Below are positions 18,413-29,431 of a DNA stretch of 64,000 nucleotides, piece by piece. The translations under genes were made by a program, and so were the position numbers. Every line of letters begins with the position of its first letter. The stretch's first letter is position 1. The DNA lies in the NCBI RefSeq assembly GCF_003670115.1, contig NZ_QQTY01000002.1, positions 496,001 through 560,000 on the forward strand, read 5' to 3'. The stretch is from Natronorubrum halophilum. GTDB taxonomy: Archaea > Halobacteriota > Halobacteria > Halobacteriales > Natrialbaceae. The notes under the pieces were generated by a model. That model saw only the letters and a list, made by a program, of their open reading frames with translations. It ran no database searches and was not told the origin of the DNA.

Positions 18413-19660
18413 ATGGGAGGAACAGCCAACCGCCGCGTCCGTCTCGGACTCTGGATCCGAATGCTCGCCGCGAGCGCGCTCTTGCTCGGTGCGCTCTTGC
18501 TCCTGCTCGTCGTCGAGTTCCTGTTCGTGTTGTTCTTCGGGGGGCTGGTCTACTGGTTCGCGCTCGGGACGATCTTCTCCGTGATCGCAGCGGTGCCGAC
18601 TGTCGCGGCCGTCCTCGGCGTCGGCTGCTACCTTGCGGTGTGTCTCGTCGGCTTCCACGCGTTCCGGGCCGCCCGCGCGGGCGACCTCGAGCACGGACCC
18701 GATACCGTTGCTACAGCGATGGGAACGTCGCTCGAATCCGTTCGCCGACGGTTGGGCGTTCGTGGGCGCGTCGCCGTCGCCGGAACCATGCTCGCGCTCG
18801 TGGCCGCGAGTCGCTGGCTCGTCGAGGCGGTCGGCGTCGAACTGTACTTCCTCCCCCTGACGATAGTCGCGGCCCTGTTCGCCGTCGTCTCGCACTCCGT
18901 TCACATCGCTCACGACGAACTGAACGGCGACGTCGCGGTGCTCCGAACGCTCGACGAGTCCGTCCACCTCTCTACCGACCTCGAGCGCGATCCCGAACTC
19001 GAGACGATCCGTCGGCGTGCCGATCGACTGGCGCGACAGGCCGGCGTTCCGACGCCGTCGATCGCGATCGCGGTGACGCGGACGCCGACGGCGCTCACCG
19101 TCGGCTATCGTCCCGCCGAGTCCACGATCGTGCTCTCACGCGGACTCGTCAAGGAACTCGACGAACGCCAACTCGAGGCCGTGTTGGCCCACGAACTCGC
19201 ACACGTGGTCAACCGGGATGCAGCCGTCATGTCGATCATGTCGATTCCGGCGGCGAAAGCCGAGGCGTTCGCCGAGCGGTACGACGGCGTCGGCTCCCTC
19301 CTGGTGCTCGCGCTGATGCTGCAGGGGCTCTCACGGTGGTGCGTCGTCGTCGTCGCTCGCCACCGGGAGTACGTCGCCGACGACGGTGCCGTCGCGATCA
19401 CGGGCGACCCGGCGGCGCTCGCGAGCGCCCTCGAGACGCTCGACCGGTCGGTCGCCCGGCGACCCGTGAGCGACCTGCGACGCCACCGCACCGCGGCCGC
19501 GTTCTCGATCGTGCCGCCGCCGTGGGAGGAACGCGGCGTTCTCGACCGTACGCGCCGGTTCGTCTCACGCCGGCTGTTCGGCACGCATCCACCGACCGAA
19601 AAGCGGATCGAACGGCTTCGGCCGGTGTCGATTTCCTCGGCAGTTGCGTCCGATCAGTAG
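18413..19660 (+). CDS. htpX: M48 family membrane metallopeptidase (HtpX-like)
   Basis: A 415-residue zinc protease of the HtpX/Ste24 type that degrades or processes membrane proteins. Four hydrophobic helices occupy about residues 8-50 and 45-75 and two more near 120-165. The zinc motif is HELAHVVNRD at about residues 260-269, and the following glutamate ligand lies in REYVADDGAVAI. After the ATG at 18413 the first helix starts. An upstream TATA-like TTATAG near 18302 would leave a leader of some 80 bases. Its stop codon overlaps the stop of the convergent DUF4397 gene by seven bases. Confidence 0.9.
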   Translation: MGGTANRRVRLGLWIRMLAASALLLGALLLLLVVEFLFVLFFGGLVYWFALGTIFSVIAAVPTVAAVLGVGCYLAVCLVGFHAFRAARAGDLEHGPDTVATAMGTSLESVRRRLGVRGRVAVAGTMLALVAASRWLVEAVGVELYFLPLTIVAALFAVVSHSVHIAHDELNGDVAVLRTLDESVHLSTDLERDPELETIRRRADRLARQAGVPTPSIAIAVTRTPTALTVGYRPAESTIVLSRGLVKELDERQLEAVLAHELAHVVNRDAAVMSIMSIPAAKAEAFAERYDGVGSLLVLALMLQGLSRWCVVVVARHREYVADDGAVAITGDPAALASALETLDRSVARRPVSDLRRHRTAAAFSIVPPPWEERGVLDRTRRFVSRRLFGTHPPTEKRIERLRPVSISSAVASDQ

Positions 19661-20442
19661 TCGTCGCCCTCGTAATCGACCACGACCTCGAGATCGAATG
19701 GCTCGTCTGCGGGTGCGCTCTCGGGTTCGAGGTACCCCACGGCGAACGCCGTGTAGACGGTTCCGGCCGCGGGCTCGATGTCGAAGGTCGCAACGACGTC
19801 GCCGTCGTTGTCGTCGGTCGCAGCCCGAACCTCGAGCGTGTACGTACCCGGGGCGACCTCGACGGCCGCTGTGTCGCCGAAGGCGACGTTCTCGAACAGG
19901 ACCGTCTCGCCGTCTCCTACCGTGACGTCGACCGCGGGAGCGTCGGGCGAGGCGTGAACGAGGCGGATTCGAGCGTCGTCACCGGGGCCGCTCAGGTCGT
20001 CTTCGAGGACGGCCGCCTCGAAGGGCTGGGTTTCCTCGCCGAGTTCGCCCAGTGCGGCGATGGTGTAGTCGCCGTCGCCGACCTCGACCTGGTCGTCGAA
20101 GACGACGGTGTCGGCGTCTCCGGCGGCCGTGATCATCACGTCGTACGTCTCGGGCGGGAGTTCGAGGTACTCGCTGACGGTTCGGTAGGGCACGTCCTCG
20201 AGGACGGCGTCGCCGTCGACCCAGACGTCGACGTTCGGCGCGTCGGGTGAGAGATGGGCAACGCGGACGCCCGCGTTCTCCTCCATCCCGTCGTCCTCCA
20301 TTCCGTCGTCCGTTTCGTTATCCATTCCACCGTCGGTCATCTCGTCGTCCGTATCGTCGCCACCCATGCAGCCGGCGAGCGCGATTCCACCTGTAGTTCC
20401 GATCAGTGTCAGTGCGTGCCGGCGCGTGTGGTTTTGTGACAT
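19654..20442 (-). CDS. DUF4397 domain Tat lipoprotein
   Basis: A 262-residue exported lipoprotein: N terminus HTRRHALTLIGTTGGIALAGC with twin arginines and lipobox cysteine C25, then an Asp/Met/Gly-rich linker (residues 26-58), then two DUF4397 repeats, the first from GVRVAHLSPDAPNVDVWVDG and the second from RIRLVHASPDAPAVDVTVGDG. DUF4397 domains are beta-sandwich modules of unknown ligand on prokaryotic cell surfaces. The ATG at 20442 directly follows an in-frame GTG at 20445. Upstream, 282 bases hold a set of hairpins. Confidence 0.88.
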   Translation of the reverse strand: MSQNHTRRHALTLIGTTGGIALAGCMGGDDTDDEMTDGGMDNETDDGMEDDGMEENAGVRVAHLSPDAPNVDVWVDGDAVLEDVPYRTVSEYLELPPETYDVMITAAGDADTVVFDDQVEVGDGDYTIAALGELGEETQPFEAAVLEDDLSGPGDDARIRLVHASPDAPAVDVTVGDGETVLFENVAFGDTAAVEVAPGTYTLEVRAATDDNDGDVVATFDIEPAAGTVYTAFAVGYLEPESAPADEPFDLEVVVDYEGDDY

Positions 20443-20558
20443 CACAACACGTTACTTGAGGGGCAGAAAAGTCGAAAGTCCCTAGCAGAGTAGGGCTACA
20501 ATCGCAAGATCAGACATGTAAAGCGATGTTAGATTTGTCGAGGGAGATCGCCCTGTGC

Positions 20559-20701
20559 GGCAGCGTTGCTGCCGTCAGCGCGACAGACCGTGGTTCGAAA
20601 GATGCCGAAGGCGTCTTTCGTCACTAAGCGGAGCGAAACCCTGTGGGGTCCAAAAGAGCCTCCGACTCTTTTGAAGATCACGAGAGAGCGGAACTCTCTC
20701 G
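20559..20701. repeat. Cluster of five consecutive hairpins
   Basis: Within 143 bases there are five perfect or near-perfect stem-loops in a row: GGCAGC-GTT-GCTGCC (20559-20573); an 11-base stem with three-base loop, arms CGAAAGATGCC and GGCGTCTTTCG, one G-T pair (20596-20620); ACCC-TGTG-GGGT (20638-20649); arms CAAAAGAG and CTCTTTTG, seven-base loop (20651-20673); and arms CGAGAGAG and CTCTCTCG, five-base loop (20681-20701). They lie just downstream of the geranylgeranyl reductase gene and upstream of the DUF4397 gene. Chance occurrence of all five is unlikely. Possible roles: a terminator or processing block, a small RNA, or a multiply folded repeat element. Confidence 0.6.
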
Positions 20702-20724
20702 AACGACAGAGTAAAACGCCGGTG

Positions 20725-22131
20725 TTAGTATTTGGGCTCCGCTCCGGTCGTCTCGTAGACCTGCTCCATCAACTGGTCGCGGCGGTCCTGCCAGCCCGAG
20801 AGCCCCGCGGGACTGGTCGGATACTGCTCGTAGTGGGCCAGCAGGTCGTCGGCGCAGCGTTTCGTCTGGTAGAGGTTCCAGATGGTGCCCCAGTGGCCGC
20901 GGCTCTTGAGTAGGGCCTCGAGCTTGAGCTTCAGGCCGATGTCCGTGCTCCCCGAGTAGAGCGCCTCGGCGAGTTTGTCGCCGGGCATCGCGGCGAGCAA
21001 GCCCATCAGGTCGTCGACGTCGACGGCCGTCGAGAGGATGTTGTAGACGTCGAGTGCGGCGTAGCGAGCGCCGAAGTGGTCCATGACGCGCTCGTTGTAC
21101 TTCCAGAAGGTGGCCTCGCTGTAGTCGCCGGTCTCGAGCGCTTCGATCGCCTGGTCGGCGGCGTACTTGCCGCCGTAGGCCGCGCCGGCGATGCCGCCGC
21201 CGGTGGTCGGGTTGACGTGACCCGCGGCGTCGCCGACGGCCATGTAGCCGGGGTGGACCGCGGAGTCGTAGGGCCGCCGCGTCGGAAGGGCTGCACCGAG
21301 TTTGTCCTCGACTTTCGCGCCCTCGAACTCGGGGCGGTTCTCGAGGTCGCGTTTGAGGTCGTCGACGAGGTGCATCGGTTCTTCGGTCATCTGGAAGCCC
21401 AGGCCGGCGTTGATCTCGGTGTCCGTCCGCGGGAAGTACCAGAGGTACCCCGCGGCGCGTTCGGTCGGCTTGAACACGAGGGCGTCGTGCCACTCGACGG
21501 GTTCCTCGACGTGGACGATCTCGCGGTAGGCCGAACAGAAGTGCGAGTAGTTGACGTTGGTGTCGAACGTCGACTCCGAGAAGTCGACGTGGTCCTGCAA
21601 CACCGAGAGCGATCCCGCGGCGTCGATGACGATATCGGCCTCGTAGCTGATCGGGTCCCCCTTTCGGATGGCTTCGACCCCCGTCACGCGGCCGTCGTCG
21701 GCCTGCGTGACGGTTTTGACGACCGTGTCGTACTTGAATTCGACACCGGTGTCTTCGGCGCCGTCGATGATCCGACGGCCGTACTCCCAGCGGTCGATGA
21801 CCGCCAGTTCGCCGGGCACCGGAATCTCGAGGACGGTGTCCTCCTGTGGGATCTCGAAGCGGCCGTGATCGACGCCCGTGTTGGTGAAGGCGGGCTCGAG
21901 TTTCGACTTCGGGATCGCCTCGGGGAAGGCATCCGCGCCCTTGAGTGCGTCTCCACAGGCGATGTGGCCCGCTTCCTCCTCGGACTTGCGCTCGAGGATG
22001 ACGACATCGTATCCTTCGCGTGCGACGGTCGCTGCAGCGTAACATCCTGCAGTCCCGGCACCGACGACGACCACGTCCGGCGAGCGGGTTTCGGATGCGG
22101 TCGTCGCGGCCGACTGCTCCTGCGTGCTCAT
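20725..22131 (-). CDS. Geranylgeranyl reductase family flavoprotein
   Basis: FAD-dependent reductase that saturates the geranylgeranyl chains of archaeal membrane lipids. The 468-residue protein has the dinucleotide-binding VVVVGAGTAGCYAAATVAREGYDVVILERK (residues about 20-50), the family CGDAL motif after the helix, the substrate signature YLWYFPRTDTEINAGLGF, and the second FAD motif GYMAVGDAAGHVNPTTGGGI. It is predicted to act on the cytosolic membrane face using reduced ferredoxin. The ATG at 22131 is the first start that begins the conserved region. Its promoter region is shared with the divergent ferredoxin gene; downstream lies the hairpin cluster. Confidence 0.92.
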   Translation of the reverse strand: MSTQEQSAATTASETRSPDVVVVGAGTAGCYAAATVAREGYDVVILERKSEEEAGHIACGDALKGADAFPEAIPKSKLEPAFTNTGVDHGRFEIPQEDTVLEIPVPGELAVIDRWEYGRRIIDGAEDTGVEFKYDTVVKTVTQADDGRVTGVEAIRKGDPISYEADIVIDAAGSLSVLQDHVDFSESTFDTNVNYSHFCSAYREIVHVEEPVEWHDALVFKPTERAAGYLWYFPRTDTEINAGLGFQMTEEPMHLVDDLKRDLENRPEFEGAKVEDKLGAALPTRRPYDSAVHPGYMAVGDAAGHVNPTTGGGIAGAAYGGKYAADQAIEALETGDYSEATFWKYNERVMDHFGARYAALDVYNILSTAVDVDDLMGLLAAMPGDKLAEALYSGSTDIGLKLKLEALLKSRGHWGTIWNLYQTKRCADDLLAHYEQYPTSPAGLSGWQDRRDQLMEQVYETTGAEPKY

Positions 22132-22157
22132 ACACACATGATCCACACCACGGGAAG

Positions 22158-22167
22158 AAAACGTTTT
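22158..22167 (-). promoter_or_regulatory. Palindrome at the geranylgeranyl reductase promoter
   Basis: AAAACGTTTT is a perfect 10-base palindrome 27-36 bases before the reductase ATG, overlapping a TATA-like ATAAAA on the minus strand. It may be part of the core promoter, an operator, or both. Confidence 0.35.
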
Positions 22168-22346
22168 ATGTGTGATTTGTTGGGCTGACGGGGGCGAAAC
22201 CGGGAGACGACGTCCGGGTTCGTGCCGGTTCGACCGTTCGGGCGGGCTCACGCCACCGAACGGGTTCCAGAAATCGAGTCTCGTTGTCCCTATCACAACA
22301 GATCGGGGAATAAAGAGTTTTAGTGCGGTCTTTCGTAGCGGCCTGT

Positions 22347-28645: not shown

Positions 28646-29431
28646 ATGAGCGTCGATCAGTCCGGGACCGAATCCGAGGCCGACCTCCTAGAACTGGTCC
28701 GGCGTCACGAGGTGTTCGACGTGCTGGCCAGCGAACCACTCGAGAAACCCGAACTGGCCGCGGCGCTGGAGGTTTCGCCGGCGACGGCACACCGGATCCT
28801 CACGTCGTTTCGCGAGAACGACTGGATCACGCGGACCGACGACGGATATGTATTGACCGCGGTGGGAAAACGAATGGGACGGGCGGTGGACAACTACCGC
28901 TCCGCCGTCACCGAGACGCAACGGCTGGCACCGCTGTACGAATTGCTCTCGTCGACGGCACTACCGACCGCCGCCGATATCGACTGGTTCGCCGACGCGA
29001 CCGTCACGGTGGTCGACCAACACGATCCATACCAACCGTTGAATCGGTTCATCGACCTGCTCGCTGACACCGGCGCGCTCCGCGGCTTCGATACGACGTC
29101 AGTCGCCCCCACATACGTCGACGACATTCACGAGCGCATCCTCGCGGGGATGTCGGTTGAGATCGTTTTCGAACCGCCGGTGATCGACCAACTCGCGACG
29201 GAGTACACCGATCTCGCCGAGGTGGCCTTCGAACGAGAGAATCTCTCGCTGTTCGCTCGCGACGACCTCCCGTTCGGTCTGGCGCTCTTCGACGACCGGG
29301 TGGGGATCGGCGGCTACGATCCCGAAGTAGGTATTCTCTCGGTCTTCGTCGATACTGACGACGAGGACGCCTACGCGTGGGGAGAACAGCTGTTCGACCA
29401 GTACCGATCGACCGCCGACCGAGTCGTCTGA
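28646..29431 (+). CDS. FilR1/DUF1724-type winged-helix regulator
   Basis: A 261-residue regulator. Residues about 10-75 form a winged helix-turn-helix: LLELVRRHEVFDVLASEPLEKPELAAALEVSPATAHRILTSFRENDWI. The C-terminal domain (about 110-260), with VTVVDQHDPYQPLNRFIDLLADTGALRGFDTTSVAPTYVDDIHERILAGMSVEIVFEPP, matches the methanogenesis-regulator FilR1 (DUF1724) family that senses an unknown ligand. It is divergently paired with the beta-helix surface protein gene and probably controls it. Start ATG 28646 places the HTH near the N terminus. Confidence 0.88.
   Translation: MSVDQSGTESEADLLELVRRHEVFDVLASEPLEKPELAAALEVSPATAHRILTSFRENDWITRTDDGYVLTAVGKRMGRAVDNYRSAVTETQRLAPLYELLSSTALPTAADIDWFADATVTVVDQHDPYQPLNRFIDLLADTGALRGFDTTSVAPTYVDDIHERILAGMSVEIVFEPPVIDQLATEYTDLAEVAFERENLSLFARDDLPFGLALFDDRVGIGGYDPEVGILSVFVDTDDEDAYAWGEQLFDQYRSTADRVV

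Follow-up and report, generated by a model that had tools for sequence, protein, structure and literature searches.

The five hairpins at positions 20559-20701 of the window, i.e., of the whole 64,000-nucleotide stretch of DNA analysed here, are one damaged copy of a palindromic post-stop element in which two smaller hairpin elements are nested. Placement, covariation, strict pairing and nesting are observed directly: palindromic DNA elements form three nested layers where the geranylgeranyl reductase gene ends. We consider the overall reading probable, in which pairing is maintained in DNA and the host element would serve as a two-way gene-end boundary, the boundary role being its less certain part. 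If this is true, Halobacteria possess an old element at gene ends, of a kind known elsewhere from bacterial REP/BIME sequences but linked to the stop codon and to specific genes, and archaeal transcription boundaries become directly testable. The nests would also provide numerous natural cases in which one palindrome has inserted into another, a process the mechanism of which is called enigmatic for Haloquadratum in the excerpt of PMC3119063 used here.

Architecture of the window copy

The window belongs to a haloarchaeal genome of 4.67 Mb (G000). The reductase gene and, in tandem behind it, the DUF4397 gene are both encoded on the minus strand, which is therefore also the coding strand for the inserted block (Table 1). 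Read on this strand, the stop codon TAA (20725-20727) of the reductase, which is the gene upstream of the element, is followed by 8 nt, TTTTACTCTG, the 116-nt block, CGGTCTG with hairpin 1, CTCCCTCG and a broken 3′ arm of the outer stem P1. The general post-stop motif, TTTTRC-NCTG at 1-23 nt past the stop and then CGGTCTG...CTCG, is present.

The window copy is decayed, and its membership is read from the 5′ post-stop motif, from the inner part P2 and from the orthologous copy in the congener G009 (L004/L036), which has an identical 5′ start and inner hairpin and different inserted hairpins. A covariance model of the element, R1, built from 63 short-form copies, gave no match at 20530-20725, where the 3′ arm and the tail are missing. 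Elsewhere in the window, R1 matches a tail-like sequence without P1 weakly at 28822-28895 on the minus strand (18.5 bits, E 0.0027).

Table 1 Features of the reductase gene end, in minus-strand order
Feature	Positions	Strand	Basis
Geranylgeranyl reductase family gene	20725-22296	minus	Open reading frame, predicted start; TIGR02032 GG-red-SF 239.9 bits, cut-off 158.8
Start of host post-stop element: spacer and 5′ arm of outer stem P1, with coding-strand sequence TTTTACTCTG	20707-20724	minus	Sequence; motif likewise after the reductase stop in relatives
Inserted 116-nt block, inverted ends TCGTTCGAGAG / CTTTCGAACCA, no target duplication, contains hairpins 2-5	20591-20706	minus	Inverted-repeat pair; limits set by comparing filled with empty copies
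Hairpin 5, one end hairpin of the 116-nt block; perfect 8-nt arms	20681-20701	minus	Inverted-repeat search
54-nt second unit at the block centre, TCTTC-hairpin-GGACC-degenerate hairpin-TTAG	20624-20677	minus	Unit also present by itself in the P1 3′ arm elsewhere
Hairpin 4, first hairpin of the nested 54-nt unit; perfect 8-nt arms	20651-20673	minus	Inverted-repeat search
Hairpin 3, degenerate second hairpin of the nested 54-nt unit; arms of only 4 nt	20638-20649	minus	Sequence
Hairpin 2, other end hairpin of the 116-nt block; 11-nt arms with one mismatch	20596-20620	minus	Inverted-repeat search
P2, inner part of host element, CGGTCTG...CAGGGCGATCTCCCTCG	20539-20590	minus	BLAST to relatives
Hairpin 1, within host P2; perfect 7-nt arms	20558-20574	minus	Inverted-repeat search; BLAST to relatives
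Degenerate P1 3′ arm; conserved 3′ tail missing beyond	20525-20538	minus	Sequence; no match to model R1
DUF4397 gene, tandem, downstream	19654-20445	minus	PF14344 156 bits

Hairpins and folding of the stretch

All five inverted repeats that a preliminary description had placed within 143 bases were recovered at the positions given there. Its statement that every arm is complementary to its partner holds for four of the five; the mismatch in hairpin 2 is G.T on the plus strand and thus A.C on the coding minus strand. That description had also suggested that the RNA of either strand could fold into a string of hairpins and had proposed a comparison with shuffled sequence as a check. Paired structure is indeed in excess: a 181-nt stretch folds at -76.7 kcal/mol on the plus strand (z -4.00) and at -79.7 kcal/mol on the minus strand (z -4.79), and 0 of 200 shuffles folded equally well for each strand. 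The minus-strand fold of the whole stretch is, however, not a plain string of five hairpins.

Hairpin density by itself is mildly unusual, and it is the comparative evidence that makes the stretch real. Counting perfect arms of at least 7 nt, three hairpins in 150 nt form the densest cluster in the window; first-order random 64-kb sequences contain such a cluster somewhere in 6 of 20 cases, as would suit a chance accumulation of inverted repeats in GC-rich sequence. Chance can nevertheless be dismissed almost entirely, as it is already refuted by the recurrence of the modules in other genomes, where the junctions are conserved and the stems change.

A single intrinsic terminator was likewise rejected, one weak match being found on the plus strand where 0.3 would be expected. 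On the minus (coding) strand there is no GC-rich hairpin with a directly adjoining T run, and the T4 tract lies before the hairpins. A search of 20300-20900 against Rfam gave 0 matches at E up to 1, as did nine related loci at the gathering score, and a known RNA family was rejected on this ground. The preliminary description had considered a terminator or processing block after the reductase gene, and alternatively a structured small RNA. Both are disfavoured by the empty Rfam search and by stem pairing without a sign of selection on the transcribed RNA strand (see below), the former also by the single, weak and plus-strand terminator-like match.

Plan and placement of the host element

With 20440-20730 as query, matches were obtained in seven of ten congeneric genomes, different sub-stretches matching at different places. 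When these are set side by side, the junctions are conserved and the stems change in both arms together. The third suggestion of the preliminary description, a palindromic repeat present elsewhere in the genome, is therefore borne out in that the pieces recur in congeners, but they belong to three elements and not to one.

The host element is palindromic and 120-400 nt long. On the coding strand its outer stem P1 reads C-N-A-N-x-TTTTRC ... GYAAAA-y-N-T-N-G, where x and y are often mismatched; after the reductase stops of other genomes it takes the form CGAA-x-TTTTRC, paired with GYAAAA-y-TTCG. The inner variable hairpin P2 is flanked by CTG and CTCGG, and 3′ of it follow CAAAAGCACTCCTCC, a variable hairpin, TCAGTCGTCGGCCCGCTCGCTC and more hairpins up to CTCCCGGCCA, the tail being pyrimidine-rich. 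The T4 tract and the tail are nearly invariant across copies.

A 19-base piece of the tail matched at least 120 stretches in public genomes, nearly all of them haloarchaeal, with a few bacterial chance matches. The loci compared contain 230 distinct tail matches, 134 of which have a P1-like start, and 131 of these were testable for position. Of the 131 copies, 101 lie 1-24 nt past the stop codon of an open reading frame that is 100 or more codons long, compared with 171 of 2620 random positions. A codon-usage gene caller places 110 of 124 distinct copies 1-23 nt past a called gene on the same strand. By this caller, the ORF-based assignment being noisy, the next gene is convergent for 67 of the 124 copies and tandem for 38.

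Some copies lie opposite one another at a distance of a few hundred bases, which suggests one element for each convergent gene; examples are G041:C1:345283-345402 (+) with 345550-345671 (-), G125:C1:390080+/390332- and G055:C2:569012+/569270-. Five loci (L072, L079, L088, L096 and L142) have a very similar short form (ACCGAACTTTTGCGCTG...) with no long-frame stop just upstream, and may represent another context.

Gene set and distribution

Clustering by protein C-terminus groups the 101 post-stop copies into 27 clusters, nine of which hold 74 copies and are each seen in several genomes. The clustered genes include those for geranylgeranyl reductase, acyl-CoA dehydrogenase, the regulator TbsP, the GTPase EngB, the large subunit of DNA polymerase D, ribosomal protein uL16, transcription factor S, an AsnC-type regulator and TrkH. 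In Natrinema versiforme, the DP2 gene (L115:3000-4730) carries a LAGLIDADG domain, probably an intein.

Class-wide, 99 of 194 Halobacteria genomes match R1 at E up to 1e-6; 13 chosen genomes carry 13-31 copies each, and the ten genomes of the genus carry 2-20. In other families, too, the element stands 3′ of housekeeping genes, directly past their stop codons, and L299 and L059 have it after the reductase. Thirty reductase loci were examined, from 41 genomes searched: R1 matches at the reductase stop in 12 of the 30, one of them L059 from another family, and nine of the 12 match at E < 1e-6; L299 provides a reductase copy of the element in a further family. Several congeners have no recognisable element after the reductase stop, and copies are scarce in some of them (two in G001, three in G006); the element is therefore not essential there. 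Only one of 72,556 plasmid records matches the element, which makes it mainly chromosomal.

Stem pairing

In the 63-row alignment of P1, two-sided changes occur in 72 cells (20.3 in shuffles) and one-sided changes in 2, and 94.5% of the cells are paired, compared with at most 57.1% when slid. The covariation extends to the tail hairpin, where column 111 combines with column 143 as GC 33 times, CG 22 times, TA seven times and AC once. The hairpins of the 124 copies together contain 3053 Watson-Crick pairs, 13 G.T, 18 A.C and 35 other mismatches, and a stricter count gives 2745, 11, 16 and 13, respectively. As a control, the acceptor and T stems of tRNAs from the genome itself (30 of 43 tRNAs, stem ends placed by maximal Watson-Crick pairing) hold 344 Watson-Crick pairs, 16 G.T and 0 A.C. 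Selection on one RNA strand should produce a pattern resembling that of tRNAs, which the element does not, so that its pairing is most simply a property either of the DNA or of RNA from both strands. From these pair statistics we infer that pairing is maintained at the DNA level, as a hairpin or cruciform.

The same counts bear on the proposal of an RNA role for the hairpins at the 3′ end of the reductase mRNA, i.e., as a terminator, processing block or stabiliser under coding-strand selection. It would agree with the location of copies directly past stop codons, with the strong folding of the stretch, and with a T4 followed by a purine and C, which comes near the T-stretch-then-C motif of Haloferax volcanii in the excerpted text of PMC7237163. 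However, G.T is not favoured over A.C (13 versus 18, as opposed to 16 versus 0 in the tRNA control), the sole mismatch of hairpin 2 is of the A.C type on the coding strand, none of the five hairpins is followed by a run of at least four T on that strand, and Rfam is without a match. In 121 of 124 copies, moreover, the fold of the coding-strand RNA is less stable than that of the antisense RNA, a comparison that is confounded by the pyrimidine-rich tail and given little weight. Selection on the RNA strand was rejected in view of the G.T/A.C counts and the strand folding energies, and we regard a role as RNA of the coding strand as improbable.

RNA use of both strands could also produce strict pairing, which counts against the DNA reading. 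The host element would then be a bidirectional terminator with RNA hairpins on both strands, and selection would forbid G.T and A.C alike. The T4 tracts on both strands, the 67 copies between convergent genes and the convergent genes that each have their own facing copy (e.g., G041:C1:345283+/345550-) speak in its favour. Against it, 38 copies lie between tandem genes, where G.T is not favoured either (7 G.T versus 6 A.C in tandem copies), and from both directions the T tract is part of the 5′ arm and thus not preceded by the hairpin. On balance, a bidirectional RNA terminator seems rather unlikely, and maintenance of the pairing in DNA is preferred.

DNA-level pairing could also arise without function, if the palindromes were neutral remnants of mobile elements whose arms template-switch (quasi-palindrome) correction keeps matched. 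Such an origin would explain why pairing intermediates are missing (72 two-sided versus 2 one-sided changes), and the decay visible in the window and in G004, as well as the nested insertions, fit with it. However, 28 of the 63 aligned copies have x and y of P1 unpaired, mostly as C.C or G.A, which correction should have erased and which thus argues against mere template switching. The presence of the element at the same genes in several genera and families and the near invariance of the T4 tract and tail also speak for more than relics, and we hold correction without function to be unlikely.

In alignment A1 (columns 6, 85 and 92), the P1-mismatch base y goes with the base z just before AAAAGCAC: where x and y are unpaired, y and z are usually complementary (C-C-G 16, G-A-T 7). 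The correlation of columns 85 and 92 may reflect subfamilies only.

The inserted block and its nested unit

Comparison of filled and empty copies defines the boundaries of the block as CTCTG, TCGTTCG...CGAACCA and CGG, without duplication; empty copies read CTCTGCGG and filled copies CTCTG-block-CGG. In the window, the block sits between CTCTG and CGGTCTG, and its inverted terminal repeats have 13-nt arms (20590-20602 / 20695-20707) that are 85% complementary. The block occurs in a short form of 56-62 nt with two hairpins and a long form of 109-116 nt with an extra two-hairpin unit at its centre; the window block measures 116 nt and those of L020, L016 and L128 109-111 nt. These boundaries and sizes are taken from a strict search, a broader one having given mostly chance matches inside genes.

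Related blocks are not confined to the post-stop element. In L241, L222 and L020, such a block interrupts the palindrome CCTCGGGG-CTTGACCCCGAGG, an IS200/IS605 left end, in its loop; at several loci an uninterrupted form of the palindrome closely precedes a Y1 transposase gene, and both Y1 and TnpB-like genes are present in L241 and L222. The second unit occurs alone in the P1 3′ arm of other copies, where a script flagged it in 10 of 124, with L045, L106 and L118 altered or degenerate; site-1 blocks were flagged in 8 of 124. Seven loci of G001 (L009, L014, L019, L022, L026, L029 and L031) have the two-hairpin block inside a larger dispersed repeat that has conserved flanks and is not the post-stop element.

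Proposed role at gene ends

Of the three layers, the outer one is a dispersed haloarchaeal element that begins a few bases past the stop codon in the orientation of the gene, the middle one a 116-nt block inserted without target duplication and with kin inside the loop of the IS200/IS605 left-end palindrome, and the inner one the two-hairpin unit at the block centre. The small elements presumably insert where an existing palindrome has its tip or a mismatch.

The host element itself may be retained because of its T4 tracts and the structure of its DNA. Against a role in termination, T4 is short for such a tract, and its location in the 5′ arm is not the classical terminator arrangement. A T4 tract would be offered to RNA polymerase from either side, and extrusion of the hairpin may be possible, so that neighbouring transcription would be kept apart. 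That the host element works as such a two-way gene-end boundary is proposed with less assurance than the nesting and the maintenance of pairing in DNA.

More tentatively, the element may possibly mark about 10-30 housekeeping genes per genome throughout the class. A DNA hairpin recognised by its structure would lie past the stop codon of the same genes across families, a putative factor would read it as a two-way boundary, and small palindromes would land at the hairpin tips.

Comparison with known systems

The 116-nt block appears to behave like an SMR-A element, a likeness drawn from the description of the HqIRS families. As far as the excerpt of PMC3119063 goes, the SMR-A small mobile repeats of Haloquadratum walsbyi (HqIRS42, 43 and 55) are about 110 bp long, have prominent inverted ends and no target duplication, and insert inside the near-terminal palindromes of PATE/IS605-type elements; no similarity exists among the three families. 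The block agrees with them in length (56-62 and 109-116 nt, the latter nested), in its inverted ends and in the lack of target duplication. As to the site of insertion, related blocks (L241, L222, L020) lie inside IS605-type palindromes. In contrast to the repeats as described there, the host palindrome in the window and in many relatives is the post-stop element and not an IS605/PATE end, and stems vary while junctions are conserved.

In the same excerpt (PMC3119063), palindrome-associated transposable elements (PATEs) are portrayed as transposase-free, palindromic, dispersed and targeted by SMR-like inserts, all of which applies to the post-stop element. PATE palindromes, however, resemble IS605 ends by that account, whereas P1 is unlike the left-end palindrome CCTCGGGG-CTTGACCCCGAGG, and the post-stop copies lie at the same genes across genera, in numbers that do not track those of Y1 transposase. 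For the ten Natronorubrum genomes G000-G009, R1 copies number 14, 2, 8, 16, 7, 14, 3, 20, 8 and 20, and Y1 transposase matches 3, 6, 7, 2, 0, 0, 2, 2, 6 and 3; G005 thus combines 14 copies with 0 matches to PF01797, and G001 two copies with six.

Bacterial REP/BIME sequences are characterised by a position at gene ends and by gyrase binding. They are palindromic extragenic repeats combined in mosaics, according to the parts of PMC2817692 and PMC3733652 consulted, and the post-stop element shares these features. It differs from REP/BIME sequences in being present in 10-30 copies instead of hundreds, in lying a few bases past the stop codon and in its variable stems; no transposase was found beside post-stop elements. 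A REP/RAYT system with a linked Y1 (TnpA-REP-like) transposase was rejected, copy numbers having no positive relation to Y1 numbers. No full element was found beside Y1 genes, the loci of which gave only block ends and one weak tail-like match. The host element shares traits of both PATEs and REP/BIME sequences and fails the tests of both, i.e., IS605-like ends and Y1 linkage. No description of it was found in the open-licence PMC papers searched, and one may be in print elsewhere.

A last point of comparison is termination in Haloferax volcanii, for which a T-stretch-then-C intergenic motif is given in the excerpt of PMC7237163. The host element resembles these terminators in having a T stretch that ends near a C after the gene, and differs from them, as far as that excerpt describes them, in being a palindromic structure of 120-400 nt with a conserved tail and a covarying stem.
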